The notes under the pieces are model-generated. The model worked only from the letters and a program-made list of their open reading frames with translations. It did not search any database and was not told where the DNA came from. Positions 28,275 through 62,156 of a DNA stretch of 64,000 bases are shown one piece after another (position 1 is the stretch's first letter; each line of letters begins with the position of its first letter). The position numbers and the translations under genes were made by a program. The DNA lies in contig CACJWK010000007.1 of assembly GCA_902597095.1 (NCBI GenBank), forward strand, positions 1 to 64,000, in the 5' to 3' direction. Origin of the DNA: an uncultured Pseudohongiella sp. Its GTDB lineage: Bacteria; Pseudomonadota; Gammaproteobacteria; Pseudomonadales; Pseudohongiellaceae.

Positions 28275-30002
28275 TCAGTCGCCTGAGGACGCTGAGCCCG
28301 CTTCTTCCGGATCTCCTAGACCATCACCACTTCGCAGTTTAGAAATGACGGACATGGCCTCAAGCATAACCATCACACTTACCACCATCACCGCTAGGTT
28401 AAGGGCAACCAGCAGCCAGCGCTCCGTTTGGAAGTAATCGATCAGGTACCATACACTTGCCCAGAAAGCCATAAAAATAATGAACACCATGGGCGCAAGT
28501 GTGAAAATTGCGGGTCGACCAAGCTTCATCAGATAGATTGACACAATCAGCAAGGTCAAACTGGCAAGAATCTGGTTGGTCGCACCAAAAACCGGCCAAA
28601 TTAGGTTGCCACCATCTCCCGGATAATTGCCTGCGGTCACCCCGAATGCCAGCAGCAAACAGAAGCCCACCCCGATCAAGGTTGAGATGTAGTTATTCTT
28701 CAGTGGCGGGATATTGTAGATCGCACCCCATTCCTGAACGATATAACGCTGCAACCTTAGTCCTGCATCCATGGTCGTGCCGGCGAACAGGACCACCATG
28801 GTTGCCAGCATGGTCTGCGAGAAAGCCTCGGGAATTCCCCAACCTGTTGAGATCAGAGCGGCTCCGCCCTCGATAAATCCCTTCTGGCCAGGACCACCGC
28901 TAAAGCTGGTGTAAATCGCCGTCCAGTCTGCCGCGTTGGCTGCATAGAGCGACCCTGTGACCGCCACAATGGTGATCAGCGCGAGCGATCCTTCACCGAG
29001 TGCACCGAGATAGCCAACAAAGCGGGCATCCTTTTCATTATTCAGCTGTTTCGAACTGGTTCCTGACGACACAATACCGTGAAATCCGGAAAGCGCCCCA
29101 CAGGCAATCGTTACAAACAGTATAGGGAATAAAGGTGGTGTGCCTTCGGCGAGGTTCGGATTGAATGCTGGAGCGGACACCGAAGGCATCGCCAGCAGCA
29201 CGGCTCCGTACATGACAACAAGCCCGATCACGAGCTGTGCACCATTAATGTAGTCGCGCGGTTGCAACAGCAACCAAACCGGCAACATCGAGGCAATACC
29301 GGCATAAATAAATAAAATAATAATCCAGTTACCGTTGGGGCCCAGTAGAAATTCCGGATCGTCCGTGCCGGGCAGATAGAGTGGCGTGACGCTGCCAACC
29401 CAGATGGTGAAATATAAAATCACCACGCCGATTACCGACACCGCCAGTAGATTGACCTTTCGACGAATCAGAATGCCCACGCAGATGGCGACAGGTATCG
29501 CGGCCCAAGCGGGAAAGACCGAGGTCGGAAAGATCACCATGTCCGTCGCGATGATCGTGCTGAACACCGCGTTCACTAACATAAGCAACAGGAAAATTAC
29601 CACCATGAACAGCGCTCGCGTGCGAGTGCCAATAACGCTCTCTGAGAGAGCCCCGATTGATTTGGCGTCATGCCGGCTGCTCGCCCAAAGCGCACCGAAA
29701 TCGTGAACTCCGGCGAAAAAGATAGAACCGAAAGTGACCCAAAGGACGGCGGGCGCCCAGCCCCAATAAACCGCGAGGGCAGGACCTGCAATCGGTGCTG
29801 CGCCGGCAACAGCGGTAAAATGCGAACCCCACAGCACAAACTTGTTAGTAGGAACATAGTCCACGCCATCGTTGAAACGGTGCGCTGGAGTCTCGTAGTT
29901 CGGATCAAGGCGATAAATTTTTTCGGCAATAAATTTAGAGTAGACAAACCATCCGAATGTAAACCCAACGAGACCAAATAAGACAATAAAGATCGAGGAC
30001 AT
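28275..30002 (-). CDS. cstA: CstA-family carbon starvation protein (pyruvate/peptide permease)
   Basis: CstA proteins are inner-membrane permeases; E. coli members import peptides or pyruvate during carbon limitation. The 575-residue protein has many hydrophobic helices and the family blocks AGAAPIAGPALAVYWGW and GVHDFGALWASSRHDAKSIG (residues 66-115), and SGFHGIVSSGTSSKQLNNE. It is shorter than E. coli CstA (701), in the class of compact homologues. It stands alone between terminators, with an extended -10 promoter candidate upstream. The exact substrate cannot be told. Confidence 0.9.
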   Translation of the reverse strand: MSSIFIVLFGLVGFTFGWFVYSKFIAEKIYRLDPNYETPAHRFNDGVDYVPTNKFVLWGSHFTAVAGAAPIAGPALAVYWGWAPAVLWVTFGSIFFAGVHDFGALWASSRHDAKSIGALSESVIGTRTRALFMVVIFLLLMLVNAVFSTIIATDMVIFPTSVFPAWAAIPVAICVGILIRRKVNLLAVSVIGVVILYFTIWVGSVTPLYLPGTDDPEFLLGPNGNWIIILFIYAGIASMLPVWLLLQPRDYINGAQLVIGLVVMYGAVLLAMPSVSAPAFNPNLAEGTPPLFPILFVTIACGALSGFHGIVSSGTSSKQLNNEKDARFVGYLGALGEGSLALITIVAVTGSLYAANAADWTAIYTSFSGGPGQKGFIEGGAALISTGWGIPEAFSQTMLATMVVLFAGTTMDAGLRLQRYIVQEWGAIYNIPPLKNNYISTLIGVGFCLLLAFGVTAGNYPGDGGNLIWPVFGATNQILASLTLLIVSIYLMKLGRPAIFTLAPMVFIIFMAFWASVWYLIDYFQTERWLLVALNLAVMVVSVMVMLEAMSVISKLRSGDGLGDPEEAGSASSGD

Positions 30003-30233: not shown

Positions 30234-31601
30234 CTAGGACTCGGGCTCACTGCTGAGCCTGTCGCCGGGCCCGTAAGTGGAAAAGCTGCCAATCAGAGAA
30301 AACCGCCTAAAGAGTTCATACATACCCCAGAGCACTCCGATCACAACGATCAGCAACATGCCCCAGCGCATCAAGGCCGCGAGAAATATCCCATCCATTA
30401 CTGGCGCCTGATAGCTGAACTGGGACAACTGCCCTCCTCGATCAAGCATCCAATGCCAGGCGCTGTGGGCAAGCAAGGCGGACAACAGAATCGCTCCAAT
30501 GCGCTCATCAACCAAATATTTGAACAAAAGGTTGAGAATCGGAATAACCAGAATTAGTATCAGCAGCTGCCCAAGTTCTACCCCGATGTTAAATGCCAGC
30601 AGAGATGAAAAGAGATGCCCTCCAGCGAACTGCAGGGTTTCACTGAATAAAAAGGAAAAGCCGAACCCATGAATCAAACCGAATCCGAACGTTACGATCC
30701 AACGGTGCTCCAGTTTGGCACCGACAATGTTTTCAAAGGCCATATAAACAATTGAGAGCGCAATCAGTGTCTCGATGAGCGGCGGAAACCAGAGCACATT
30801 CGGCGCCAGACCGAACGCTGAACTGATCAGCGTGATGGAATGCGCGATGGTAAACGAGGTGACAACCGGAATCAGGGCTCTGACACGACGCAGCGGTATG
30901 ACCAGACAAAACAGAAACAGAAGATGATCGATACCTTCGAGAATGTGCAGAAACCCCATCTCGACAAATCGCAAGGCTGCCTGATGCCAGCGAGGGTCAA
31001 GCTCAACAAGGCCGGGATTGCCAAGGTAGTTGAAAACTCTTTCAGCACCTGTCGGAACAAGAAACCTCAGCACGGTCGTTGTCTCTTCTGACAGAGTGCC
31101 CAGCTCCGGGTTCACGGAAAATTGCGAATCTTCAGAGTCGATCGGGTAGGTCACCAGAATGTCCAGCACACCTTGGCGCCAGAACAAGTTGACATCATCA
31201 TCCAGGGGCTCCGAAAGGATGTTTTCCATCGCGGTCTCAAAGTCGCGGAAAGTTCGATTCGAGGGCAGAGAAACCCGGGTCGTGACCAATTCCTTTTCAG
31301 TCAGCTCGACCCCATTTTCGAAAAAATTAATGGAATCAGTAATGTAGACGCGGGCAGCCTCCTCCTGGGCCGACTCGGCTCCGGATATCTGCAGATAGCC
31401 GGGCCCCCGCAAAGGAAACACAATCTCGCTGAGTGCCTCCATGGGGACTCTCAGCAAGGCGGTCAGCTCATTTCCGGCTGGTTTCACGAATGCGTAGACG
31501 GTCACCCGCGATGGAATATCATGGGCATGGGTCGCTGAAGACCATCCCACAGCGGCAGCCAGCAGTACCAAACACTCAGCAAAGCGCCGTATTCGCTTCA
31601 T
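30234..31601 (-). CDS. HupE/UreJ-like membrane protein with large extracytoplasmic domain
   Basis: A 455-residue protein. It has a signal-like N-terminus (MKRIRRFAECLVLLAAAVGW), a soluble region to about residue 205, then about seven membrane helices with His-containing motifs: HILEGIDHLLFLFCLVIPL, FGLIHGFGFSFLF, AHSAWHWMLDR. This is the HupE/UreJ-2 family, related to nickel or cobalt permeases but of unproven substrate. The frame extends 15 codons upstream, but the ATG at 31601 follows an AGGGA Shine-Dalgarno. It is divergent from the PAL-like gene, which together with the conserved His suggests a metal-transport link (inference). Confidence 0.75.
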   Translation of the reverse strand: MKRIRRFAECLVLLAAAVGWSSATHAHDIPSRVTVYAFVKPAGNELTALLRVPMEALSEIVFPLRGPGYLQISGAESAQEEAARVYITDSINFFENGVELTEKELVTTRVSLPSNRTFRDFETAMENILSEPLDDDVNLFWRQGVLDILVTYPIDSEDSQFSVNPELGTLSEETTTVLRFLVPTGAERVFNYLGNPGLVELDPRWHQAALRFVEMGFLHILEGIDHLLFLFCLVIPLRRVRALIPVVTSFTIAHSITLISSAFGLAPNVLWFPPLIETLIALSIVYMAFENIVGAKLEHRWIVTFGFGLIHGFGFSFLFSETLQFAGGHLFSSLLAFNIGVELGQLLILILVIPILNLLFKYLVDERIGAILLSALLAHSAWHWMLDRGGQLSQFSYQAPVMDGIFLAALMRWGMLLIVVIGVLWGMYELFRRFSLIGSFSTYGPGDRLSSEPES

Positions 31602-31764
31602 CCTATTCCCTAAAATGGTTGTCTTACTTATATTTTTTCTATTCATTACAGATACTTATGAAAAATATGCCGCAGCAGGGTAGCCGGAGATAACTCGCCG
31701 CGCAACAGTGTGATAATGGACTGTTACAAATTCTTACAAGTCTACGTGGGATAAAGAAGAGCGT

Positions 31765-31852: not shown

Positions 31853-33049
31853 ATGATAAACAAGAAACTGGCGATCGGCTCATTCCTGACAGTAAGCTTG
31901 GTTGCGCTGGGAATCGGTCAATCAAAGCTTCAGGACCCTACCATTGCAGCCAGCAATGACGTAATGGCCCCGGCCTTCCTGGTAGACCCGCTGTGGCCCA
32001 AGCCACTCCCCAATCACTGGATCACCGGTAACACCATTGGTGTGGATGTGGATGACAGAGATCACATCTTTACGGTACACAGAAATACTGAAAACATGTT
32101 CGGTGGACGCACTGAAATCGGACTGGCACTCGGCGTGGCAGAATGCTGCACACCGGCACCTCCTATTCTTGAATACGACATCGAAGGCAACCTGATCAAC
32201 GCGTGGGGCGGTCCGGTCGAGGGAGCCCCTTACCAGTGGCCGGAGTCAAACCACGGCATCGAAGTCGCTGCCAACGGTGACGTCTGGATTGGTGGCAACG
32301 GCGGTCCTGATTCTCACGTGCTGGTTTTCACACGGGACGGCGAATACATTCGAACGGTCGGAGTTCCCGGCGAGGAATTCGACAGCAACAGTACAACTGC
32401 ATTTGGCCGCGTTGCCGAAATCGCCATCGATGAAGACGCCGGTGAAGCCTACTTTGCCGACGGCTACGTCAACAAGCGGGTTGCCGTGGTCGACGTGGCG
32501 ACCGGTGCGTTCAAGCGTTACTGGGGCGCCTACGGCAGCACGGACATAGACGACGACGCCGATGACACCTACACTCCAGGTCAACCGGGTCCGGACGTTT
32601 TCCGCGGGCCAGTTCACTGCGCAGAGCCTTCCAATGACGGCCTGATTTATGTGTGCGACCGAGGAGCTGACCGGGTGCAGATTTTCCGCCCCGACGGAAC
32701 CTTCGTGAGCGAACATATCTACAACCCGGCAACGCTTGCTCAGGGATCTACCTGGGATATCGCTTTCTCACCGGATGAAGATCAGGAATTCATCTACCTG
32801 GCAGATGGTCAGAATTTCAAGATCTCCATTATCGATCGTGCGTCAATGGAGGTACTGTACACCTTCGGTGACGGTGGCCGTCAGCCTGGACTGTTCTACG
32901 CACCGCATAGCATTGCCACGGATTCCGAGGGTAACATCTACACCACGGAGACCTATGAAGGTAAGCGCGTACAGAAGTTCCTGTATCAGGGTATGCGCCC
33001 GGTCACCGTCAGAGACCGCGCACCAACCTGGCCAGCTTCAGAGCTGTAA
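31853..33049 (+). CDS. Secreted NHL beta-propeller, peptidyl-hydroxyglycine lyase (PAL)-like
   Basis: A 398-residue exported six-bladed propeller (signal MINKKLAIGSFLTVSLVALG). It aligns by motif with the lyase half of eukaryotic peptidylglycine amidating monooxygenase. FTVHRNTEN (R77) matches FHRGDHVW with R533. SNHG (H134), PVHCAE (H255) and APHSIA (H352) sit where PAL has its zinc ligands H585, H690 and H786. ADGYVNKR (Y205) matches DGYCNSR with Y654, and CDRGADRVQIF (R270) matches ADRENGRIQCF with R706. PAL Met784 is replaced (A350). PAL cleaves alpha-hydroxyglycine peptides to amides; the real substrate here is unknown. It has an AGGAG Shine-Dalgarno and a terminator after it. Confidence 0.75.
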   Translation: MINKKLAIGSFLTVSLVALGIGQSKLQDPTIAASNDVMAPAFLVDPLWPKPLPNHWITGNTIGVDVDDRDHIFTVHRNTENMFGGRTEIGLALGVAECCTPAPPILEYDIEGNLINAWGGPVEGAPYQWPESNHGIEVAANGDVWIGGNGGPDSHVLVFTRDGEYIRTVGVPGEEFDSNSTTAFGRVAEIAIDEDAGEAYFADGYVNKRVAVVDVATGAFKRYWGAYGSTDIDDDADDTYTPGQPGPDVFRGPVHCAEPSNDGLIYVCDRGADRVQIFRPDGTFVSEHIYNPATLAQGSTWDIAFSPDEDQEFIYLADGQNFKISIIDRASMEVLYTFGDGGRQPGLFYAPHSIATDSEGNIYTTETYEGKRVQKFLYQGMRPVTVRDRAPTWPASEL

Positions 33050-33071
33050 GCCACAGCCAGACCGGCTTAAC

Positions 33072-33107
33072 AAAGCCCGGTTCTCTGTCGCGAGAGCCGG
33101 GCTTTTT
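33072..33107 (+). terminator. Rho-independent terminator after the PAL-like gene
   Basis: A 9-bp stem AAAGCCCGG / CCGGGCTTT, extended inward by TCTC/GAGA, is followed by TTTTTC. Confidence 0.85.
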
Positions 33108-33260
33108 CATGCCTTCAATCCGGATTAGAAAACTGATACCGAGATAATCTTTTCAGTCAAAAACGATCGATGCCCGTGGGTGCAAGCCTTGAACACTCGA
33201 GACTCAGGAATTATTCTCACTGATAACAGATTCGCCTGCCGCATGAGCCGAGGGACTTTC

Positions 33261-33800
33261 ATGACCAGACTTACTTTCACCTTTTTGCTGTGCCTCAGCT
33301 CATTTGATCTGAAACCGGTGGTAGCTGATGAGCTGACTATTGACTTCACGTACGGGCGCAATGTGAATATTGGCAGTATCAGCCCGAGCCTGCATTTAGC
33401 GCCTTTCGCTGACGAGCGTGGTCTTGCAGATCCAAATACCATTGTCGGAGAAGATCGGGCACAGTTGCCTCTGGCAGATCTGATCAGAGACGCCTTCGAG
33501 CAGGGCTTCAACAAGGGCGGTGTCGAATTTGTGGACGAGGGTGCTGACATGGAAATTGTCGGCACTTTGCTCAGCTCTGAACTGGAAACTGTTGACAGAG
33601 CAGGAGTTCCCACCCTACAGCTCACCATTCGCACTGGCATTGAGCTTCGCGGCGGTGGCCGCATCATCTGGTCGACCACGCTGTTCGGGCGCGGGCGCGT
33701 TCCGGTGGAGGAAGGCCTTGGCAGTGCGGTCAATGCCTCACTTGAGCGACTGGTGCGCGAGCTTTTACGAGACGACTATTTCCTGCTCGAGCTGGAATAA
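33261..33800 (+). CDS. Small exported protein of unknown function
   Basis: A 179-residue protein with a signal peptide (MTRLTFTFLLCLSSFDLKPV) and a mixed alpha/beta mature region. I do not recognise it. The later part (ADMEIVGTLLSSELETVDRA ... GGGRIIWSTTLFGRGRVP ... ASLERLVRELLRDDYF) recalls the shape of YajG-type lipoproteins, which are built from a similar strand-helix pattern, but there is no lipobox. The ATG at 33261 has GAGGG six bases upstream and precedes the signal peptide, so it was preferred to earlier in-frame starts. It converges on the nuclease-fold gene with a 10-bp gap. Confidence 0.65.
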   Translation: MTRLTFTFLLCLSSFDLKPVVADELTIDFTYGRNVNIGSISPSLHLAPFADERGLADPNTIVGEDRAQLPLADLIRDAFEQGFNKGGVEFVDEGADMEIVGTLLSSELETVDRAGVPTLQLTIRTGIELRGGGRIIWSTTLFGRGRVPVEEGLGSAVNASLERLVRELLRDDYFLLELE

Positions 33801-33810
33801 CATCGGAAAT

Positions 33811-34605
33811 TCAGCTGCGGCAGCCGAGCATGGGATACAGCGACAGTTCAACTTCCTCCGTTGCCGCCGGAAAAAAATCCAACCCGCTCAGCGCTTCTAT
33901 CTCTTCAATGCCAGCACGCAAGTCGCAGTGGTGAACGTGCACTGCAGTGTCTTGCGGAAAAAGAAACGCAGCGGCACGTGCGTCTTCTGTTAGCACAATT
34001 TTAAAAAATTTGTCCGGTATACGATACCCACTGTCTTCTGTCAGTAGCCTTGGTTCCGCCTCAGGGTCAAAGATCGCTCCAGTATAGACATAAACCGCTG
34101 CTTCACGATTCACCAAATTTCGAAGCGACCAGTCAAGCCCGTACCAGGCTCCCTGACTCAGACTACGGCTGCGCACCGTGGCGTTCGAGGCAAAGTTGAC
34201 TTCACGCCAGTAGGGAGTTCCCGCAAAGCTGACCAGTGGCACATGTTGTGACCGCACGTATTCCTGCTCCGCCAGCGCCGCGAAATCTGCAGCGGTAAGC
34301 GATTCCGAAACCCAATCATCCCGGATGAGATCGCGCGATAAACTGGAAGCAATGCCAATCGACCCGGGCGTCACTTGATACGCTGCCCAGACTGCCGATT
34401 TCCTGCCCTCGTCATACGACAAGGTGTAGACCGATCTCACCAGAATCTGGTTGCCGCTGGAACCTTCCGGGCATCCGAACAGGCAGTGGCCGAACCGATA
34501 GATCTGCGCCTGAGCGGGAAGGGTCAACACGCCAGCCATCATAAGGGCACAAGCCTTACCCGAACGCAGGAAGTTGTGGCTCAAAACGCGCTTCAATGGG
34601 AACAT
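33811..34605 (-). CDS. Exported DNA/RNA non-specific endonuclease-fold protein, active site altered
   Basis: A 264-residue protein with signal peptide (cleavage near AQA-Q34). The family layout of Serratia-type nucleases is visible: VYTLSYDEGRKSAVWAAYQV, a histidine in the position of the DRGH motif (RSQH, H121), NFASNATVRSRSLSQGAW, then VYVYTGAIFD. The catalytic His is kept, but Arg87 of DRGH is Ser and the magnesium ligand Asn119 (LNQGAW) is Ser150. Glu127 is Asp158. Activity is therefore doubtful. The start was set at the ATG before the signal peptide; the Shine-Dalgarno is weak. Confidence 0.65.
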   Translation of the reverse strand: MFPLKRVLSHNFLRSGKACALMMAGVLTLPAQAQIYRFGHCLFGCPEGSSGNQILVRSVYTLSYDEGRKSAVWAAYQVTPGSIGIASSLSRDLIRDDWVSESLTAADFAALAEQEYVRSQHVPLVSFAGTPYWREVNFASNATVRSRSLSQGAWYGLDWSLRNLVNREAAVYVYTGAIFDPEAEPRLLTEDSGYRIPDKFFKIVLTEDARAAAFLFPQDTAVHVHHCDLRAGIEEIEALSGLDFFPAATEEVELSLYPMLGCRS

Positions 34606-34825
34606 GGTTGGGTTGGCAGTATCCTGGTTGACTAGCTCTATTCTCGCACTTCTGCAGCCCGGATCGAAGCACCAAAAGGTCAGCGATGAAAGCAGGTTAG
34701 GCTCTACTGCCCGCGACCGGCCCGGCAAATCTCAAGCCGTTGCCGGTGCACTAATACGCCATTATTTCTGAAGGCCCCCCTCAGAGTGCCTTGTGGTTGA
34801 TGGCGATCCTCTCTAATGAACCCGC

Positions 34826-34900
34826 TTGAAACCGGCGCAAAGCCTGCGTAATCGGCGGAAAAATCTGCTCAATTATTCAAATTAAAGGACTTTTTAATTT
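34826..34900 (+). promoter_or_regulatory. Candidate promoter and AT-rich inverted repeat before the heme-copper gene
   Basis: TTGAAA and TAATCG are separated by 17 bases (34826-34854). Just downstream, AAATTAAA and TTTAATTT form a perfect 8-bp inverted repeat with a 6-base spacer (34879-34900). The repeat lies about 75 bp before the start codon and could be an operator or a leader hairpin. The -10 match is weak. Confidence 0.35.
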
Positions 34901-34976
34901 TCAGGATGCCCAGTCATCGCTTCGAGCCTACACTTCGTACCTGCAATATATCCTGCAAGTAGCTTAGGAGATCAAC

Positions 34977-36707
34977 ATGCGTACAGTTTCATTCCTGCTC
35001 GGATTGGCTGCGGTTTTTGCTGCAGCGACCTTGGCAAGCATCCCGGTCAGTGCGGGCGAGCGCATCAGTGACTTTTCACTGATCGATCAGCACGGAAAAT
35101 TCTTTCAGCTGAGTCGTCAGGCTAATTTTGATGCCATCGTGTTCATGGCCCATGAGGACAGCAGAGACGTTCGTCGTGCGGCCTCAGACCTGGCCGACCT
35201 CAGCACGCAGTTCGAAGGGCAAAACGTCGGCTTTTACTTCATCAACTCTACCGGTGAAACGGACAAGGCAGAAATTCGGGAATCTGCAGATGATGCAGAT
35301 ATCAAGCTGCCAGTTCTGATGGATGAGACACAGTTAGTGGCCCGCGAACTCGGCATTGAGCGCGCAACCGACGTAGTCATTCTTGACCCGACCGCGCTTG
35401 AGCTGGTCTTCCACGGAGCGCTCAATGATCGCTGGGCTGAGGACACCAGGTCGCGACGGGCTTCAGATCATTATGCAGCTGACGCGCTCAGCCAGTTTCT
35501 GGCAGGCGAGTCCGTCACCGCCAGACAGACCTCATCGAAGGGCGACGCAATCACTGTGGCAGCTGTCAAAGACATTTCCTACGCCAATGACGTCGCGCCC
35601 ATTCTGAAAGAGCGCTGCGTGAGCTGCCACATGGAAGGTGGAATCGCACCCTTCGCCATGAACAGCCACCAGATGGTCCAGGGCTGGTCTCCCATGATCC
35701 GCGAGGTTCTCTACACCAAGCGCATGCCTCCGGGCCAGATTGATAACGAGTACGTTCACGACTTTCGCGATGTTGCTCACATTACGGTTGAAGAGACCCA
35801 GACATTGGTTAACTGGATCGAGAACGGGGCGAAAAACACAGACGACGCCGATCCGCTCGCCGAATATTCTCCTGAGCTGGTAAAGTGGGCCTACGGTGAG
35901 CCGGACATGGTGATTCCGGTTCCTCCTCAGCAGATCCCGGCGACCGGAATTCAGGACTATCGCAACATACCGGTTGCGCTGGATCTCGAAGAAGATATCT
36001 GGGTCAAGGCGATCGAGTTTGAAGCAGGCGATCCAACCGTTCTTCACCACATCATCGCTTTTGCCTACGGTCCCGACGGTATGAACCAGTTTGAGATTCT
36101 CAATCAAGGGATTGGGCTGGGTGCCTATGCGCCGGGCAACGAAATCAACACCTACCCAGAGAATTCGGGCTTCCCGCTTAAGGCCGGTGGAGGGCTCTTC
36201 CTCCAGCTTCACTACACCACCTCTGGGAAAGAAACGACAGATGCCTCTGAGATCGCACTCTATTTGTGGGATGAAGAGCCAGAGCGTCAGGTTCTGGGCG
36301 GATCTGCCGCGGACTTGGATATCAACATCCCACCGTTCGCACAGCGCCACGAGATGGTTGCCACAGCAAAGTTCAGAAAGGATTCCTACATCACCATGCT
36401 CGGTCCCCACATGCACTACCGGGGCCATGACGCCAATTTCACTCTGGCCTATCCAGACGGCTCGAGTGAAGAAGTGCTGAACGTTCCGAACTACCAGTTC
36501 AACTGGCAGAAGGTGTACGACTTTAAAGAACCCAAGTTTGTGCCGGCAGGGACCGAAATGGTATTTACCGGCACGTTTGACAATTCCGAATTCAATCCGT
36601 CTAACCCGGACGCCTCGCAAACCCTGTCATGGGGTGAACAGACCTGGCAGGAAATGTTTTTCGGTTTCTACCGCTACGTTGAAGCTGGTAATCCAGGCGG
36701 CGAATAG
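34977..36707 (+). CDS. Secreted redoxin-like / heme c / PHM-like copper monooxygenase protein
   Basis: A 576-residue exported protein in three parts. After the signal peptide, residues 26-180 resemble an AhpC/thioredoxin fold (ISDFSLIDQHGKFFQLSRQA) but have no cysteine. Residues 200-290 hold one heme c site: C214-V-S-C217-H218 with probable axial M250 in RMPP. Residues 310-576 match type II ascorbate-dependent copper monooxygenases: H357-H358 and H412 (CuH site), H478-M-H480 and M560 in QEMFFGFYRY (CuM site), so the full ligand set of PHM is present. Heme could deliver electrons in place of ascorbate (inference). TTAGGAG Shine-Dalgarno; monocistronic. Confidence 0.8.
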   Translation: MRTVSFLLGLAAVFAAATLASIPVSAGERISDFSLIDQHGKFFQLSRQANFDAIVFMAHEDSRDVRRAASDLADLSTQFEGQNVGFYFINSTGETDKAEIRESADDADIKLPVLMDETQLVARELGIERATDVVILDPTALELVFHGALNDRWAEDTRSRRASDHYAADALSQFLAGESVTARQTSSKGDAITVAAVKDISYANDVAPILKERCVSCHMEGGIAPFAMNSHQMVQGWSPMIREVLYTKRMPPGQIDNEYVHDFRDVAHITVEETQTLVNWIENGAKNTDDADPLAEYSPELVKWAYGEPDMVIPVPPQQIPATGIQDYRNIPVALDLEEDIWVKAIEFEAGDPTVLHHIIAFAYGPDGMNQFEILNQGIGLGAYAPGNEINTYPENSGFPLKAGGGLFLQLHYTTSGKETTDASEIALYLWDEEPERQVLGGSAADLDINIPPFAQRHEMVATAKFRKDSYITMLGPHMHYRGHDANFTLAYPDGSSEEVLNVPNYQFNWQKVYDFKEPKFVPAGTEMVFTGTFDNSEFNPSNPDASQTLSWGEQTWQEMFFGFYRYVEAGNPGGE

Positions 36708-36759: not shown

Positions 36760-36941
36760 TGTCTAAGGAAGGCAAACGTTCAGACACCTTGCCAGTGTGG
36801 CCGGCATTCTTTCAACAACTGCTCTCAATGCCGGAATATGTTTGCAAGCTGCTCGTCAATGCGTTTGCAGCCGATGGGCCTGTGGTAGACTCACTCCAAC
36901 GACTTTCAACGAAACGCCGACCGCATTCCTGACAATTGACC

Positions 36942-38588
36942 ATGAATAAACTGACTCCATTACTCCTATCACTGCTTTGCTCGGCGACAGTAGCCGAAAC
37001 GACCCTGTACTTCAATGTGAATGGCTACACGCTGGACCGGGATTTTAAGCTGCTGCGGTTTTCGGCTATTCAGTTCACCGATGACAGAATTGATGCCATT
37101 TACGGCGACTCGAACCCCTTAGCGCAAGAGCCTGACCATCGCATTGATGGCAACGGACAAACCATGATTCCGGGCCTGATAGACGCGCATGGCCATGTGC
37201 TGTCTTACGGGCTTTCACTGCTGCGGGTCGACCTGGTCGGTGCAGAGTCGGAGTCTGAAGCTGCCGGGCGTGTGCTAGATTTTGCGCAAGCCAATCCCGC
37301 TGTCGAATGGATACAGGGCCGGGGTTGGAATCAAGTGCTGTGGGACAGCAATGAATTTCCCCAGGCAGCCAGCCTTGACGCTGTCGTCAGTGACCGACCG
37401 GTGTGGCTGACCCGAGTGGACGGCCACGCTGCTTGGGCAAATTCGCTGGCGATGGAACTGGCCGGCATCAGCGATGACACCGAAGATCCTGTCGGCGGAC
37501 AGATCGTCCGCGACGAGAATGGTAAGGCAACCGGAGTATTTATCGACACCGCGATGTCCTACATCCGCGAGCAGATCCCGGCCACGTCTTTCGAAGAGGA
37601 GAAAGTTGCTCTCACTACTGCACTGAATTCCCTGGCGACTTATGGCATTACCAGTGTTCATGACGCCGGTATCGGCAGCAGCACGATCGCTGCATACAAG
37701 GAACTGGTTAGCGAGGCACCCCTGCCCGTTCGCGTTTATGCGATGATTGCAGCCTCCGACCCACTCTATCAGGACCGCTTAGCAGAAGGTTTTTTCCACA
37801 GTGAAGACATGACACTTGCAGTTGAGAGCGTCAAGGTGGTGGCGGACGGAGCCTTGGGGAGCCGCGGTGCCGCGCTGATTGAGGATTACGATGACTCGCC
37901 TGGCTATCGCGGTTTGTTGCGTTATAACGACGAACGCTTGGAATATTTGATTCGCACCGCAATGAACGCCGACTTTCAGGTAGCCACTCACGCCATTGGT
38001 GATAATGCCAATATGCGAGTGTTGGATAACTATGAAAGACTGATCAGGGAAACTGACTCCAAAGATCGGCGCCATCGCGTCGAACACGCGCAAATTTTGC
38101 GCTACGAAGACATTATGCGATTTGCTGAGCTTGGCGTGATCCCTTCGATGCAGGCAACTCATGCCACTTCCGACAAAAACATGGCAGAAGACCGACTCGG
38201 CCCAGTACGAATTCAGGGTGCTTATGCCTGGCGAAAACTTCTGGACTCCGGAGCCCGCATTGCGAATGGTTCCGATTTCCCGGTTGAGCACCCGAACCCC
38301 TTTTATGGTCTGCATGCCTCCGTCACACGCCAGGATCAACAGAACAACCCACCGGGTGGCTGGTATGGTGAGGAGCGCATGACGCTCGAAGAATCCCTGG
38401 CGAGCTTCACCATCGATGCCGCTTACGCAGGGCACCAAGAAGCACATCTTGGTACCTTGGAGCCCGGCAAAAAGGCCGATTTCATCTTGCTCGACCGGGA
38501 TATCTTCACGCAACCTCCCACCCAGATGTGGCAAACTCTGGTGCAAGAGACCTGGGTGGATGGGGTAAGAGTCTCAGTACAAAACTAA
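36942..38588 (+). CDS. Exported metal-dependent amidohydrolase (YtcJ-like)
   Basis: A 548-residue enzyme of the amidohydrolase superfamily, YtcJ type. It has a signal peptide (MNKLTPLLLSLLCSATVAET), the metal motif GLIDAHGHVLSYG around residue 75, VVADGALGSRGAALIEDYDD, HAIGDNANMRVLDNYE, RVEHAQ and ANGSDFPVEHPNP. Such enzymes hydrolyse N-acyl, N-formyl or amide bonds; the substrate is not predictable. A TTG two codons upstream is possible but the ATG is preferred. It is first in a four-gene unit, 26 bp before the acylase. Confidence 0.85.
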   Translation: MNKLTPLLLSLLCSATVAETTLYFNVNGYTLDRDFKLLRFSAIQFTDDRIDAIYGDSNPLAQEPDHRIDGNGQTMIPGLIDAHGHVLSYGLSLLRVDLVGAESESEAAGRVLDFAQANPAVEWIQGRGWNQVLWDSNEFPQAASLDAVVSDRPVWLTRVDGHAAWANSLAMELAGISDDTEDPVGGQIVRDENGKATGVFIDTAMSYIREQIPATSFEEEKVALTTALNSLATYGITSVHDAGIGSSTIAAYKELVSEAPLPVRVYAMIAASDPLYQDRLAEGFFHSEDMTLAVESVKVVADGALGSRGAALIEDYDDSPGYRGLLRYNDERLEYLIRTAMNADFQVATHAIGDNANMRVLDNYERLIRETDSKDRRHRVEHAQILRYEDIMRFAELGVIPSMQATHATSDKNMAEDRLGPVRIQGAYAWRKLLDSGARIANGSDFPVEHPNPFYGLHASVTRQDQQNNPPGGWYGEERMTLEESLASFTIDAAYAGHQEAHLGTLEPGKKADFILLDRDIFTQPPTQMWQTLVQETWVDGVRVSVQN

Positions 38589-38614
38589 CGAAAATCAGAC
38601 AGTCGGAGGCGGTT

Positions 38615-40879
38615 ATGCCGGTAAAAAACTTTATTGCAGTCACACTTCTCAGTGTTGTGCTCATTGGCTGCGGACAAGATGACCGCAACTCGACAGAAAA
38701 CCTGACAGAAACGAGCCCAACTGCCCCCCTGTTTTCCGGTGAAGAGATCGCCCGCTGGGAAGCCAGCGCTGACAAAGTCACTATCCTCAGGGACACTTGG
38801 GGTATCGCCCACATTTATGGTGTAAGCGACGCTGACACTGTCTTCGGCACGCTCTACGCCCAAGCCGAAGATGACTTTTATCGGCTGGAGACAAACTACA
38901 TCAACGCCATGGGCAGGCTGGCTGAAGCAGAAGGAGAAACACAGCTCTATCGGGATCTTCGCATGAAGCTGTTTATCGATCCGGTTGAGATGCAGGCACA
39001 ATTTGAGACCAGCCCTGACTGGCTCAAGGACCTGATGGTCGCATTTGCGGATGGTCTTAACTATTACCTGTATACGCACCCTGAGATCGAACCCCGGGTA
39101 ATCAAAAAATTCGAGCCATGGATGGCGCTCACCTTCTCGGAGGGAAGCATCGGTGGCGACATCGAGCGGGTAAATATCAGCCGACTGAAAGATTTCTATG
39201 ATCCGACATCAATGGTAGCAGTAGCAGAAGGCCTTTTTGACGGCGAGCCAAGGGGGTCAAACGGCTTCTCTATCGCGCCTAAAAATACGGCGAACGGGAA
39301 CGCGCTCTTTTTAATCAACCCTCACACTTCATTTTTCTTTCGCTCAGAATTGCATATGGTGAGCGAGGAAGGGCTGAACGCCTACGGCGCGGTCACCTGG
39401 GGTCAATTTTTCATCTACCAGGGTTTCAACGAGAATACCGGATGGATGCACACCTCCAGCAGAGCCGATGCGATCGATGAATACCTCGAGACCATCGTCC
39501 AACAGGATGACGGATACTACTATCAGTACGGAGACGAATTGAGGCGTCTCGAGGAAAAACTGATCAATCTCCCTTTTCGCGACGGCGACGCGATGTCGGA
39601 AATCGAAGTCACTGCCTATTACACCCATCACGGACCTATCATTCGGGAGGAAGACGGAAAATGGGTCTCGATAAGCCTGATGCAGGAGCCTGTCAAGGCA
39701 CTGTCTCAATCCTATGGCAGGACCAAATCCCGCAACTACGAAGAATTTGCCGCCACCATGGAGCTGCGCACCAATTCCTCCAACAACACCGTTTATGCGG
39801 ACAGCGAGGGCAATGTTGCCTACTGGCACGGCAACTTTATTCCCAGAAGAGATCCAAATTTTGACTGGAACAGCCCGCTCGATGGCAGTAACCCGGCAAC
39901 CGATTGGGGACCTCTGCACGCAGTCAGTGAAATGATCACCGTGTTCAATCCGGACAGCGGCTGGATCCAGAATACAAACAACACACCGTTCAATGCCGCG
40001 GGTCCCGGTAATAGCCCGCAACCGGAAGATTACCCTGCCTATATGGCGAACAATCCGGAAAATCCGCGCGGAGTTCACGCAGTGCGAGTTCTGCAGGGCA
40101 AGAACGACTTCACGCTCGATTCGCTAATTGAGGCTGCTTATGATCCGGCCCTGCCGTTTTTTGATGATCTGATTCCCAGACTTTTGCTCACCACTGCGGT
40201 GGATAGCCCGAGCATTGTCGATGAAGACGGCAACGCCGTGCAGCTGCAGAGCACTCTCACCGGGGAGATTCTCGATTGCATCGATTTACTCAGAGGTTGG
40301 GACACAAACTTTAGCGTGGATTCGGTTGAGACGTCACTGGCTGTTTTTTGGGCTGAAGCGCTCATGGAAATGGTGCGGGCCGATGCCGCAGCGGCGGACA
40401 TCAACATTTATGACTACATGGTGAATAATGCCTCCCCGAATCAGCTTCTCGGCGCCCTGAATCAGGCAGCCGACGCACTATCCCAGGATTTTGGTTCTTG
40501 GCAGGTTCCATGGGGAGAGATCAATCGCTACCAGCGCATCACCGGAGATCTGGTGCAGAATTTTGACGACAATGCGCCAAGCGTTCCGGTCGGTTTTGCC
40601 TCAGGCAGATGGGGAGCACTGGCTTCATTTGGCGCGCGCACCTATCCGGGCACCCGACGCATGTACGGCACCAGTGGCAACAGCTTTGTCGCAGCCGTGG
40701 AGTTTGGCCGTCCAATAAGAGCCAAAGCCATTACCGTCGGCGGCTTGCAAAGCGATCCAGAATCGCCGCATTTCGACGATCAGGCAGAAATGTATGCAAA
40801 TGGCGAATTTCGTGATGTCCTGTTCTATCGTGACGACATCGAAGCCAACCTGGAGCGGGAATACCGCCCGGGAAATTAA
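38615..40879 (+). CDS. Penicillin acylase-family lipoprotein (N-terminal nucleophile amidase)
   Basis: A 754-residue precursor of the penicillin/AHL acylase family, which cleave acyl groups from amines. The lipobox LIGC (Cys19) predicts attachment to a membrane after export. The cleavage site that creates the beta subunit is G214-S215-N216 (PRGSNGFSIAP), with Ser215 as nucleophile. Oxyanion-region motifs such as GFNENTGWMHTSSRAD follow. The true start has GGAGG before it; the frame extends back over the amidohydrolase. Substrates could be acylated amino acids, homoserine lactones or polyamines. Confidence 0.88.
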   Translation: MPVKNFIAVTLLSVVLIGCGQDDRNSTENLTETSPTAPLFSGEEIARWEASADKVTILRDTWGIAHIYGVSDADTVFGTLYAQAEDDFYRLETNYINAMGRLAEAEGETQLYRDLRMKLFIDPVEMQAQFETSPDWLKDLMVAFADGLNYYLYTHPEIEPRVIKKFEPWMALTFSEGSIGGDIERVNISRLKDFYDPTSMVAVAEGLFDGEPRGSNGFSIAPKNTANGNALFLINPHTSFFFRSELHMVSEEGLNAYGAVTWGQFFIYQGFNENTGWMHTSSRADAIDEYLETIVQQDDGYYYQYGDELRRLEEKLINLPFRDGDAMSEIEVTAYYTHHGPIIREEDGKWVSISLMQEPVKALSQSYGRTKSRNYEEFAATMELRTNSSNNTVYADSEGNVAYWHGNFIPRRDPNFDWNSPLDGSNPATDWGPLHAVSEMITVFNPDSGWIQNTNNTPFNAAGPGNSPQPEDYPAYMANNPENPRGVHAVRVLQGKNDFTLDSLIEAAYDPALPFFDDLIPRLLLTTAVDSPSIVDEDGNAVQLQSTLTGEILDCIDLLRGWDTNFSVDSVETSLAVFWAEALMEMVRADAAAADINIYDYMVNNASPNQLLGALNQAADALSQDFGSWQVPWGEINRYQRITGDLVQNFDDNAPSVPVGFASGRWGALASFGARTYPGTRRMYGTSGNSFVAAVEFGRPIRAKAITVGGLQSDPESPHFDDQAEMYANGEFRDVLFYRDDIEANLEREYRPGN

Positions 40880-40908: not shown

Positions 40909-42087
40909 ATGAGTATTGATGGAGCCTATCAGCCCGGCCGCCATTTTCTGCAAATTCCCGGACCCTCTAATGTTCCGGAAAGTGTGCTCAGGGCCATGGC
41001 TCAACCGGTCATTGATCACCGTGGCCCGGAATTTCCGGCCCTGACGTTCAGATTACTGGAGAAGCTCGCGCCCGTATTCAACACTGAGTCCTCTGTCTTT
41101 ATCTATCCGGCATCCGGTACCGGTGCATGGGAATGCGCCCTGCTTAATTGCCTGTCACCCGGAGATAAAGTACTGGCTTTTGAAACCGGACACTTCGCCA
41201 CTCTTTGGAAAGAAGTCGCTGAAAAGCTGGGGCTTCACATCTTATGGATACCTGGAGACTGGCGCCACGGGGTCGATCCGTCAGTCGTGGAGGAAAAACT
41301 GTCAGAGGACAGCAAGCATGAAATACAGGCCGTTCTGGCTGTCCACACGGAAACATCAACCGGTGTCACCAGTCGAATCGGCGATATCAGGCGCGCGATA
41401 AACAAAGTAAGGCACCCTGCTTTACTCATAGTTGATGCTGTCTCCTCTCTCGCTTGCACAGAGTTTCTGCATGATGACTGGGGAGTGGATGTGACGGTCA
41501 GCGCCTCACAGAAGGGGCTCATGCTGCCACCGGGATTGAGTTTCAATGCAGTCAGCGAGCAGGCGCTGGAGCGCTCCAGAGTGAATCAGAGCCACCACTC
41601 CTACTGGCAGTGGGAAGCCATGGCAAGCAACAACGCCAAAGGCTATTTCCCCTACACGCCCAGTACCAACCTTCTCTACGGTCTGGATGAAGCGTTAAAT
41701 TTGTTGCTTGCAGAGGGGCTCGACAAGGTGTTTGCCCGTCACTCTCGTCTGGCCGCAGCCACCCGTGCGGCAGTCAATGCCTGGGGGCTGGAAAATGTCT
41801 GCATGAATTCAGAGGAATATTGCAATTCAACGACAGCGGTCTTCGTGCCCGAAGGCTTCGATGCGGATGATTTAAGAATGATCATTCGTGAGAGATTCAA
41901 CATGTCATTGGGGACGGGTCTGGGCAAACTTAAAAACAGAATCTTCCGCATTGGCCATATTGGTGACTTCAACGACCTGATGCTCATGGGCACGCTGAGT
42001 GGTGTGGAAATGGGCCTGAAACTCGCGAATATTCCCCATCAACCGGGAGGCGTTGAAAGCGCAATGGATGCGCTCAGCAAAAGCTAG
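40909..42087 (+). CDS. Class V aminotransferase, serine/alanine-glyoxylate type
   Basis: A 392-residue PLP enzyme of the AGXT/SgaA group, which transfers amino groups from serine or alanine to glyoxylate. Visible features are LQIPGPSNVPESVLRAM at the N-terminus, ASGTGAWECALLNCLSPGD (residues 68-86), VHTETSTGV, VDAVSSLACTEF (PLP-binding Asp) and the Schiff-base lysine K202 in SASQKGLMLPPG. It is 29 bp after the acylase and 41 bp before the GntP permease, suggesting it acts on an amine released by the upstream hydrolases. Confidence 0.9.
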   Translation: MSIDGAYQPGRHFLQIPGPSNVPESVLRAMAQPVIDHRGPEFPALTFRLLEKLAPVFNTESSVFIYPASGTGAWECALLNCLSPGDKVLAFETGHFATLWKEVAEKLGLHILWIPGDWRHGVDPSVVEEKLSEDSKHEIQAVLAVHTETSTGVTSRIGDIRRAINKVRHPALLIVDAVSSLACTEFLHDDWGVDVTVSASQKGLMLPPGLSFNAVSEQALERSRVNQSHHSYWQWEAMASNNAKGYFPYTPSTNLLYGLDEALNLLLAEGLDKVFARHSRLAAATRAAVNAWGLENVCMNSEEYCNSTTAVFVPEGFDADDLRMIIRERFNMSLGTGLGKLKNRIFRIGHIGDFNDLMLMGTLSGVEMGLKLANIPHQPGGVESAMDALSKS

Positions 42088-42128
42088 ATATCTCTTAATA
42101 ACAACGATAAAAATCACTGGAGATGCCC

Positions 42129-43502
42129 ATGGATTCTGCCACCGCGGTCAATACCAGCGCTGCCGTATCACTGCTGGGATTCGCTGCGATTATTTTTCTG
42201 CTGCTATTTCTGATCGCCAGATGGAAGTGGCACGTTTTCTTCGCGCTTCTCATCCCAATCCTGCTCTTTGGCATCTTGCCGGGAATCCAGCAGAACAACT
42301 TTATTGACGCATTTGAGAACGGTTTCGGGAACACCTTGAGCTCGATTGGTGTGGTGATTGTACTGGGCTCAATCATTGCTGAAGCCCTGAAACACACTGG
42401 GGCAATTCAGGTGATCACACGTTCGATGGTCAATCTGGTCGGTTCTCAAAGGATGCCTCTGGCCCTCACCCTGACCGGCTTTATCATAGGCGTCGCGATT
42501 TTTTCAGATGTTGCTTATGTGATTCTCAATCCACTCGTCCACTCGGCGGCAAAAACCATGGGAGTGGGCATCGCGGTGATGTCCACCGGGCTGGTCGGCG
42601 CCCTGCAATTGACCCATGCCATCGTGCCACCAACACCCGGGCCACTTGCAGCCGCAGCGCTGGTCGGCGCAGACATCGGGAAGACCATCATCCATGGCAG
42701 CATCGCCTGCCTGTTTGGTTCATTGGCTTGCTGGGCGTGGGGAGTACTGTTTGCCGGTCCGCGCGTCAGCACACCGCCAAGTGACGAATTCGAGGGTATC
42801 ACCGTCGATGACCTTGATCAGGACGGTCCACAGGAGTTGCCGAGCACCCTGAGTTCCTATTTGCCCATCGTGGTTCCTATCCTGTTGATTGGTGCACAGA
42901 GCGTCGTGACGTTGGCATTTCCCGACGGACACATACTGCGTACGGTCTTTCTGTATCTGGGATGGCCAGTGATGGCACTGTCCTTCGGCGTGTGGCTGGC
43001 ATTTCGCAACATCAAGAACCCGAAAGATCGCGAGAATGCCAAAGACGCCTGGGTAGAAGCTGCCCTGAAAACCTCTGCTATGATTCTCGTGGTGACGGGC
43101 CTTGGAGGGTCGCTCAGTGCGATTCTGAGAGGAACGCCGGCGGTGGACTTCATCGCCGCATTCTTTAGTGACTATGGTTTGCCAGCAATTTTGTTGCCTT
43201 TCGTCATAGGCATTATTGGCAACATGATCACCGGCTCTACAACCGTCGGGGTTATCACCGCTGCATCGCTGGTCTCTCCCATGCTCGGCAATCTCGCCCT
43301 CTCACCGGAAGCGGCCATGCTGGCAGGAGCAAGTGGTTCCGTCATCATCAAATACGTGAACAGCAGCTATTTTTGGGTCTGTACGTCTCTTTCGAAGCTC
43401 AGCGTAGCTGACGCCGTTTTCAGCTATGGCGGTGCAACCCTGGTGGGGGGTATCGTCTCCTTTGTCACGGTATGCGTGATGTGGGGACTCGGGATTATCT
43501 GA
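42129..43502 (+). CDS. GntP-family permease
   Basis: A 457-residue inner-membrane carrier with about 12 helices of the GntP/gluconate:H+ symporter family, whose members import hydroxy acids such as gluconate, glycerate or serine. The family pattern is seen in HTGAIQVITRSMVNLVG, SDVAYVILNPL, HAIVPPTPGPLAAAALVGAD and GSTTVGVITAASLVSP. An ATG two codons upstream overlaps the Shine-Dalgarno (TGGAG), so the second ATG is chosen. Last gene of the operon. Pairing with a serine-glyoxylate type aminotransferase points to a hydroxy or amino acid substrate. Confidence 0.88.
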   Translation: MDSATAVNTSAAVSLLGFAAIIFLLLFLIARWKWHVFFALLIPILLFGILPGIQQNNFIDAFENGFGNTLSSIGVVIVLGSIIAEALKHTGAIQVITRSMVNLVGSQRMPLALTLTGFIIGVAIFSDVAYVILNPLVHSAAKTMGVGIAVMSTGLVGALQLTHAIVPPTPGPLAAAALVGADIGKTIIHGSIACLFGSLACWAWGVLFAGPRVSTPPSDEFEGITVDDLDQDGPQELPSTLSSYLPIVVPILLIGAQSVVTLAFPDGHILRTVFLYLGWPVMALSFGVWLAFRNIKNPKDRENAKDAWVEAALKTSAMILVVTGLGGSLSAILRGTPAVDFIAAFFSDYGLPAILLPFVIGIIGNMITGSTTVGVITAASLVSPMLGNLALSPEAAMLAGASGSVIIKYVNSSYFWVCTSLSKLSVADAVFSYGGATLVGGIVSFVTVCVMWGLGII

Positions 43503-59006: not shown

Positions 59007-60701
59007 TCAGTCGAGGCTCTGGTAGTAAGTAAAGTAACCCGTAAACATCTCTTCCCAACTGTTGAATCCAAATGGGATTTCGAGGTTCGGATCTGGGTTG
59101 GTAGGGTTCGACTCTGAATTATCCAAAGCACCCGTCACACGTAGCGTCGAGCCTGCAATAGCAGTAACCGGCTCGTCGAGCAGGTAATGGGGCTGCCAAC
59201 CATAGTTGAACGCCGGCACACTGAATAACTGATTGCTGACGCCACTCGGTGCTTCTACCTCAAAACGCATTTTTTTGCCGCGATAATTCATTCGTGCACG
59301 CACGCCGGTAATCACGATATTTTCATCAAGCGAGTGGCTGGCTTGAAGAGCAAACTCCGGCGTGTTGGGAGGAAGTACGAACCGCGTGCCGATCGCTTGA
59401 ACTCGCTGCTCTCGTGGCAAGGGGAGGTCGCTGAAATACAGTCCCAGTTGAGTTTGATCCACTGTAGACTGACCATTCGTGACATAGTGGAACTGCATTG
59501 ACAGGCGGTAACCAGCCGGAATAAAAGTGCCTACCCCCTCAGGGAACTCATAGACATTAACCTTACCGGGGATGTAGCCAGCAACGAAGCGACGGCTGAC
59601 TGAGGTGCTGACGCGCTCTGCCCCCCAGAAATCCTCTTCGGGTTCGGACACAAAAGTGATCAAATGGTGAAGAACAGTCGGATCACCCGCGCGGTATTGC
59701 ACCGCTTTTACCCACTTGTCTTCGGTAAAGGGCAACTCAATATTGTTGTAGTAGTAATCAAGAACGCCGGTGGAAGGTATCGAATGTTCAGGACCCTGAA
59801 CAATGTAATCCGGTTCTCCAAGTACCCATCCCTTGTTGGATTGCATGTGATGCTCCAGCGGATCGATCTCTCCCTCACCCCGGGGAGCTCCTGCATCAAT
59901 CCAGTGAATCAGGGTCTGCAAATCCTGCTTAGAAACTCCTCTGGCGCTGGCACTATGTCCGACGTAGGGGTCGACCTGCATAGGCGGCATGCGCTTATTC
60001 AGCAGCACCTCGCGAATCATGGGTGACCACCCGAGCAGCATGATGTGGGAGTCCATTGCAAACGGACCTACCCCGCCCTGCACATGACAGTCCAAACAAT
60101 TTTCGATTACTATAGGTGCCACTTCTGATACATAATCCGGAGGCGACTCGAGGTGCCGGCTCCGGGCTGGAAAATCAATCGTGCAACCAGTCGTTTCGAC
60201 AGCAATCGTATCATCCATACTGCCGTCCACTACCGCATTCAACGCATCGTCAAGAGCCTCACTGACGTCCCCGCGGTAGTAAACGGAAAGCCTCTGAGGG
60301 TTAAGCACGAGCACATCGCCGGCCCTGGTGATCTCGAGGGTCTCCGACACCAACTGCCCATCATCTTCCAGCAGAGGAAGGGGCAGATCGAGTGCGCGGG
60401 CGACCTCCCGACCGAGGTCTCTCGCATCCAACAAGATAAAATCAATACCTTGGTCTTCATACGAGGAGTCCAGAGCCGCAAAGCGGTCAAGCATGCTGCC
60501 CATCTCGGCACAGCTACTGTCATACGCCATCAGGGCGAGTGCAGCCCGGTGCTGGTAACGACTAAGTTGGTGAAAAGTTCCGCGATCGTCCAGCAGCGCA
60601 AAGTCGCCAACACGATCAAGGGCTCCGTGAAGAGTCCCGCTTAACGTCGCGCAGCAGACCAAGAAAAAAATTCGCAATGCGCGCTGCCTGGCTTGTTTCA
60701 T
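59007..60701 (-). CDS. Secreted redoxin-like / heme c / PHM-like protein lacking CuM histidines
   Basis: A 564-residue homologue of the 34977 gene with the same three parts: signal peptide, redoxin-like domain (VGDFALLDDRGTFHQLSRYQ) with a single cysteine C64 instead of CxxC, heme c site C202-L-D-C205-H206 with M238 in RMPP, and a PHM-like domain. The CuH ligands H345-H346 and H405 and the CuM methionine M552 (EEMF) are present, but the CuM HxH motif is replaced by R470-M-N472 (VRARMNYRG). Oxygen activation as in PHM is therefore doubtful. The ATG at 60701 is chosen before the signal peptide; the frame is open further upstream and no good Shine-Dalgarno is seen. Confidence 0.78.
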   Translation of the reverse strand: MKQARQRALRIFFLVCCATLSGTLHGALDRVGDFALLDDRGTFHQLSRYQHRAALALMAYDSSCAEMGSMLDRFAALDSSYEDQGIDFILLDARDLGREVARALDLPLPLLEDDGQLVSETLEITRAGDVLVLNPQRLSVYYRGDVSEALDDALNAVVDGSMDDTIAVETTGCTIDFPARSRHLESPPDYVSEVAPIVIENCLDCHVQGGVGPFAMDSHIMLLGWSPMIREVLLNKRMPPMQVDPYVGHSASARGVSKQDLQTLIHWIDAGAPRGEGEIDPLEHHMQSNKGWVLGEPDYIVQGPEHSIPSTGVLDYYYNNIELPFTEDKWVKAVQYRAGDPTVLHHLITFVSEPEEDFWGAERVSTSVSRRFVAGYIPGKVNVYEFPEGVGTFIPAGYRLSMQFHYVTNGQSTVDQTQLGLYFSDLPLPREQRVQAIGTRFVLPPNTPEFALQASHSLDENIVITGVRARMNYRGKKMRFEVEAPSGVSNQLFSVPAFNYGWQPHYLLDEPVTAIAGSTLRVTGALDNSESNPTNPDPNLEIPFGFNSWEEMFTGYFTYYQSLD

Positions 60702-60951
60702 GAGAATTCGGCTTGAGATATGTAACATTTTGTAAAAAAACAACAACATAAAGGCACTGTTTACCGCTTCAATAATGTGGACGCCAATGGAATTGGTCGC
60801 TATCCTAGCTGTCCTGATTATCAGTGCGCAACTTAAACTAACTTGATAAAGCGTGCCTCTCTGTCCCGCCGGACTTTCACTGCCGACGGACGAGAATGAG
60901 CAACTGTTCAATCACTGGATTAGCTGAAATGACTAAATGGAGAGTACATCC

Positions 60952-61939: not shown

Positions 61940-62156
61940 GACCTCAGAACTTTCGCTGATTTCGCCGCTGGGCGATCATATTTAGCCACCCTAAAACGGA
62001 AAAACCCCCTCAAACTCCCGTATTCTGCGCTCTTCAGACTGTTGCAATTTGTTGCACAAAGTCCCGTAAAAAGGCTGTTAACAATGGACTTTTCCCAAGC
62101 CTCCCATTACCATGTAGGGTGGAGATTTGCCTAATATTCCTACCAAGGAGAGCAGC

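Follow-up and report, generated by a model that had tools for sequence, protein, structure and literature searches.

Copper enzymes of the amidating kind are known from eukaryotes, in which they rely on ascorbate, and their PAL half releases glyoxylate. In bacteria, PMC12508155 describes MgdH/MgdL, in which methylguanidine is hydroxylated and a dedicated lyase then splits the hemiaminal, and reports no sequence homology between MgdL and PAL. Here we describe a window of 64,000 nucleotides (positions 1 to 64,000 of contig CACJWK010000007.1, from an uncultured Pseudohongiella sp.) that contains, within 5 kb, a gene for a PAL-like NHL propeller (31853..33049, + strand, 398 amino acids) and a gene for a protein with a PHM/DBH-type copper monooxygenase domain (34977..36707, + strand, 576 amino acids; the 34977 protein). 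A first-pass annotation had proposed that these form a split bacterial counterpart of PAM, which in animals completes the making of peptide hormones, the two proteins acting in sequence on one exported substrate. Our analysis indicates that the two are probably linked in function. We tentatively explain them as halves of a lineage-specific periplasmic module for two-step C-N cleavage; the pair is probably not a true peptide-amidating enzyme. A search of the open-access literature, with subscription papers mostly outside it, gave no recognised description of the pair or of its architecture. The genome around the window is 2.4 Mb and 77% complete, and near-identical propellers come from records named Pseudohongiella or Gammaproteobacteria metagenome-assembled genomes.

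The propeller retains the PAL-type residues

The six PAL-type residues listed by the first-pass annotation, R77, H134, Y205, H255, R270 and H352, are all present at those positions of the propeller. Their counterparts in rat PAL, like those of the copper ligands discussed below in rat PHM, have catalytic and ligand roles that our literature search did not confirm. When the propeller was aligned by profile to rat PAM, R533, H585, Y654 and R706 fell directly on R77, H134, Y205 and R270. Rat H690 was one residue off H255, an offset that a one-residue loop indel would explain, and H352 is matched to rat His786 by a PH motif only, not by residue-level alignment. The residue that follows differs: rat Asp787, presumably a calcium ligand, is replaced by Ser353, and by motif position only 1/46 relatives has Asp.

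Conservation was scored in the best 120 of 1960 propeller homologs and in the best 120 of 7999 homologs of the 34977 protein. The PAL-type residues are retained in 119-120 of the former; however, these sequences are 97-100% identical, so that conservation among them says little. Among diverse propellers (36-96% identical), R, H, H, R and H are retained in 46/46 and Y in 44/46. This alignment was made by trying 48 of 80 propeller loci (numbered L below; G denotes genomes), two of which were skipped (L057, with a stop, and L102, for its frame and stops).

The predicted models match rat PHM and PAL. For the propeller, the match is to rat PAL (PDB 3fvz) with ~19% identity over the structural alignment, and it is no better than that to the NHL domains of Thin and TRIM71, which score about the same. 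For this reason we did not accept structural similarity as showing that the propeller functions as a PAL. A weaker Pfam match of the propeller is SGL/gluconolactonase. Many main loci, that is, loci corresponding to that of the window, have a second tandem propeller that is ~66% identical (L028, L030, L034, L036-L046 and others); the window lacks it.

The 34977 protein is a heme-copper protein of three domains

The 34977 protein has an N-terminal redoxin-like domain (35049..35570, + strand, ~residues 25-198) that was missed in the first pass. It continues with a cytochrome c domain, whose heme c motif, CVSCH (35616..35630, + strand, residues 214-218), had been noted earlier, and ends with the PHM/DBH-type copper domain (35895..36695, + strand, ~residues 307-573). 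The only two cysteines of the protein, 214 and 217, are both in the heme motif, and the redoxin-like domain lacks the catalytic cysteine of redoxins and peroxiredoxins. Met250, downstream of CVSCH, is invariant. The five His and one Met expected as copper ligands (H357, H358, H412, H478, H480 and M560) are all where the first-pass annotation had placed them, and the copper-type residues are retained in 117-120 of the best 120 homologs. Both the propeller and the 34977 protein start with a hydrophobic, export-type stretch, in agreement with the secretion proposed for them.

A heme-copper profile aligns to human DBH through the HH, H, HxH and M sites (E 2.1e-6), and, up to E 1, its matches include no chain of PHM. 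Though the profile finds DBH, the predicted fold of the copper domain, which has the two-domain form of PHM/DBH-type monooxygenases, is nearest PHM. Pfam gives a match to this domain under the cut-off only (Cu2_monoox_C, E 0.018) and NCBIfam gives none; a relative's sister copy, run by phmmer against the PDB, matched in its redoxin and cytochrome parts only. Source databases name the homologs, where they are named, redoxin, peroxiredoxin, mono/diheme cytochrome c proteins or hypothetical. Current annotation therefore conceals the half of these proteins that is of the copper monooxygenase type.

In rat PHM, Arg240, Asn316 and Tyr318 form what we take to be the clamp for the glycine carboxylate. 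The corresponding positions of the 34977 protein, as located by their distance from the HxH and Met ligands, are Gly476, Phe562 and Phe564, and the 120 listed orthologs have G in 119/120, F in 117/120 and F in 117/120, the remainder being gaps. The missing clamp suggests that the substrate is probably not a glycine-extended peptide. Together with the profile result, this makes a relay on such a peptide unlikely for the 34977 protein; a putative hydroxylase-lyase relay may instead use another substrate.

Many relatives carry two sister redoxin-heme-copper genes between those for CstA and HupE, in which the first clamp position is Arg and the third is Tyr; these copies are better candidates for a glycine-extended peptide substrate. 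The window's own genome lacks this pair between CstA and HupE. Its sole R+Y copy of the redoxin type is a paralog of the 34977 protein at 59007..60911 (- strand), in which Arg and Asn replace two copper-ligand His and which is possibly inactive. A further heme-copper paralog, without the redoxin domain, is at 62127..63512 (+ strand), and one more lies past the window end. In total, the genome has 13 heme-copper paralogs in 2.4 Mb, which the first pass had missed. The heme-copper family is expanded throughout genus genomes G003-G024, with 9-34 matches in each of the 14 genomes searched, and in the subset of these genes that was examined, residues near the copper ligands are variable.

PAL-like and PHM-like genes are linked within the lineage

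We compared 80 propeller loci from GTDB genomes, counting genes as PHM-like from a cut-off of 200 bits. In 33/80, a PHM-like gene of at least 200 bits is present in the available flank. The main loci flanked by 6.8 kb or more on each side all (16/16) carry one to three redoxin-heme-copper genes, and these are a mix of the 34977 type only, sister types only, or both. Seven short-flank main loci are without a PHM-like gene (L024, L026, L027, L035, L043, L047 and L063); none is found across 9.5 kb upstream in L027 or 9.4 kb downstream in L035.

Proximity recurs away from the main locus. We judged 22 PAL-like genes, from 15 of the 24 genus genomes with a match, to be outside it; positions and copy numbers were compiled by hand, split fragments were merged by eye, and the set excludes one fragment (G007) as well as second copies in tandem at the main locus. 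Eight of the 22 have a PHM-like gene no more than 5 kb away, compared to 1.4 expected (P 2.5e-5), and 9/22 have one within 10 kb, compared to 2.5 expected. The PHM-like partners fall in several clades of a tree made by a quick method (79 rows, including 10 of the 120 listed orthologs, and with a long-branch warning). The arrangements also vary: the propeller precedes the copper gene in L048, L049 and L066-L068, while L013 and L085 have the order copper gene, pyrroloquinoline quinone (PQQ) dehydrogenase, propeller.

L013, on contig C28 of the window's own genome, is a tight run (L013:5647-11879) of a heme-copper monooxygenase, a cytochrome c/PQQ dehydrogenase and a metallo-beta-lactamase/NHL fusion. 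The fusion has Glu at the Tyr position, and the propeller/copper-gene spacing in G005, G010 and G019 is similar to that of L013. Among eight short genus propellers (open frames of 360-411 amino acids, 35-41% identical), 0/8 are within 10 kb of a PHM-like gene, compared to 0.9 expected, a number too small to prove a difference. The similar short propeller sequences L100 and L101 also have Glu at the Tyr position.

Within the window's genus, PAL-like genes are present in 24/25 genomes and PHM-like genes in 25/25, and at the cut-offs used neither was found in other genomes of the order (0/13). A class sample of 229 genomes gave PAL-like genes in 1 and PHM-like genes in 5, one of which (G210) matches the redoxin part only. 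A phylum sample of 299 genomes gave 11 and 3, respectively, with both only in the window's own genome. The class and phylum searches scored part of the first-look candidates, and as a result they give too low a number of copies and may overlook weak relatives; for the own genome, the phylum PHM-like search scored 6 of 19 candidates and returned 6 of the 13 PHM-like genes. The co-occurrence across genomes that the first-pass annotation had made the test of its proposal thus fails in both samples. We conclude that neither the PAL-like nor the PHM-like family generally requires the other and that the link, if real, was made in the window's lineage, where PHM-like genes multiplied.

Genes surrounding the pair

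Two genes lie between the propeller and copper genes. The first (33180..33800, + strand) encodes a protein without a Pfam match, whose homologs follow the propeller or propellers at the same locus in relatives. The second, of the DNA/RNA non-specific endonuclease family (33811..34728, - strand), is the nuclease-fold gene that had been reported on the other strand. Divergent from the propeller is a gene for a HupE/UreJ-type membrane protein (30234..31646, - strand), beyond which is a CstA family transporter (28275..30002, - strand). The HupE/UreJ-type gene is the widest-kept linkage of the propeller, in 37/80 loci, and reaches Kordiimonadaceae, Gemmatimonadota and Acidobacteria (e.g., L065, L070, L072, L076, L078, L083, L088 and L094). 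Its product may supply metal to the propeller.

Behind the copper gene is a same-strand run of an amidohydrolase of family 3 (36936..38588, + strand, after a gap of 228 bp), a penicillin-acylase-type amidase (38528..40879, + strand, with a 61 bp overlap as called; its start may be later), a class V aminotransferase of the glyoxylate type (40909..42087, + strand, after 29 bp) and a GntP family permease (42123..43502, + strand, after 35 bp). The closest PDB match of the aminotransferase is a serine-glyoxylate enzyme (2.1e-108), and its score against the glyoxylate aminotransferase BhcA is 416 bits, short of the 650 cut-off. An aminotransferase of this type fits a hydroxylase-lyase module, although it is seen at the main locus only and other uses exist. 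Together, the amidase, acylase and aminotransferase suggest that products are eaten, making a catabolic purpose likelier than peptide maturation.

An Rfam scan of 25000-46500 gave three tRNAs and no other match, and promoter-like and terminator-like sites were rarer than in shuffles. An exported protein without a Pfam match and with a PDLQG motif is encoded at 50816-51853; its relatives immediately precede the propeller in L057 and L066-L069.

A possible two-step module and its rivals

The explanation that we favor, without rating it as probable, is the C-N cleavage module. The 34977 protein, as a predicted dicopper monooxygenase, would hydroxylate a carbon beside an amide or amine nitrogen, with electrons arriving via its own cytochrome c domain. 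The PAL-like propeller, presumably holding a metal, would then split the resulting carbinolamide, freeing the amide or amine and leaving an aldehyde or keto acid. That heme c takes the place of ascorbate, as the first-pass annotation suggested, is plausible on architecture only.

Several observations weigh against such a module. Non-enzymatic NHL domains fit the propeller fold as well as PAL does, and the copper domain lacks the carboxylate clamp of PHM. None of the 32 distant propeller loci (L070-L103 minus L073 and L085), many of them short-flanked, has a PHM-like gene of at least 200 bits (0/32); weaker matches are seen in L081 (122 bits, without copper ligands) and L083 (83 bits). Co-occurrence outside the genus is absent from the class and phylum samples. 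Within the genus, the excess within 1 kb is weak (2/22 compared to 0.5 expected, P 0.09), the genomes share ancestry, so that linkage counts are not independent and the P values are too small, and with so many PHM-like matches per genome some proximity is chance. Finally, the PQQ dehydrogenase between the two genes in L013 and L085 would also fit ordinary alcohol oxidation.

This last arrangement also suits the main rival, a shared catabolic island without direct coupling, in which the copper enzyme hydroxylates a lipid, aromatic or terpenoid carbon in DBH-like fashion while the propeller, as a hydrolase or lactonase, serves a different step or acts on a different compound. The profile match to DBH instead of PHM, the missing clamp, the SGL/gluconolactonase match and the PAL-like propellers found elsewhere without PHM-like genes are all consistent with it. 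Yet the propeller retains the full PAL-type residue set, and its partners come from several clades in differing arrangements; we consider this rival somewhat less likely than the module. Simple proximity of unrelated genes, in genomes crowded with heme-copper genes, seems improbable. The 13 such genes in 2.4 Mb, the intervening nuclease gene and the lack of co-occurrence in the wider samples would agree with chance, but a copper gene is retained in all the well-flanked main loci, though these descend from one ancestral locus, and the excess within 5 kb is found off the main locus. A true split PAM, along the lines of the first-pass proposal, that amidates or degrades glycine-extended peptides or N-acylglycines and releases glyoxylate is to us very doubtful. 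Both ligand sets, the glyoxylate-type aminotransferase and the Arg and Tyr of relatives' sister copper genes speak for it. However, G/F/F occupies the clamp positions in the 34977 protein and its orthologs, the own genome's one R+Y redoxin-type copy lacks two copper-ligand His, and the amidase and acylase genes suit breakdown better than maturation.

The paired action proposed in the first pass therefore keeps its folds, ligand sets, heme motif and recurrent proximity in the lineage, and loses general co-occurrence, the clamp residues and a profile match to PHM. The comparison with PAM is right for fold and metal ligands and unproven or wrong for substrate and general pairing. More tentatively than the module itself, we suggest that this marine Gammaproteobacteria lineage may combine PAL-like metal lyases with a large family of copper monooxygenases wired to heme, numbering ~33 genes in one genome, in a modular extracytoplasmic system for oxidative C-N cleavage, in which the respiratory chain, not ascorbate, would feed the copper via the fused cytochrome c.

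Comparison with known systems

In MgdH/MgdL (PMC12508155), as in the proposed module, a bacterial hydroxylase hands its product to a dedicated lyase; MgdH differs in being an iron/2-oxoglutarate hydroxylase. Since that paper itself denies sequence homology between MgdL and PAL, we rejected MgdL as a PAL homolog and treat the likeness as analogy only. Compared to the PAL half of rat PAM (3fvz), the propeller has the NHL fold, the Arg, His, Tyr, His and Arg counterparts and, as rat PAL does at His786, a PH motif, but has Ser instead of Asp after the last His. It is also a separate gene, and most of its relatives outside the lineage are without a nearby PHM-like gene. The redoxin-like domain differs from thiol-disulfide/redoxin proteins (2cvb/2ywo) in having no cysteine. 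With rat PHM (1phm) and human dopamine beta-hydroxylase (4zel), the 34977 protein shares the two-domain copper fold and six copper ligands; unlike them it carries redoxin and cytochrome c domains in front, and unlike rat PHM it is missing the carboxylate clamp. A bacterial enzyme of this kind, with heme fused to it, would make the electron route to two separate coppers accessible to testing and would supply new C-H hydroxylases, with the genus expansion as a natural series for relating pocket residues to substrates.
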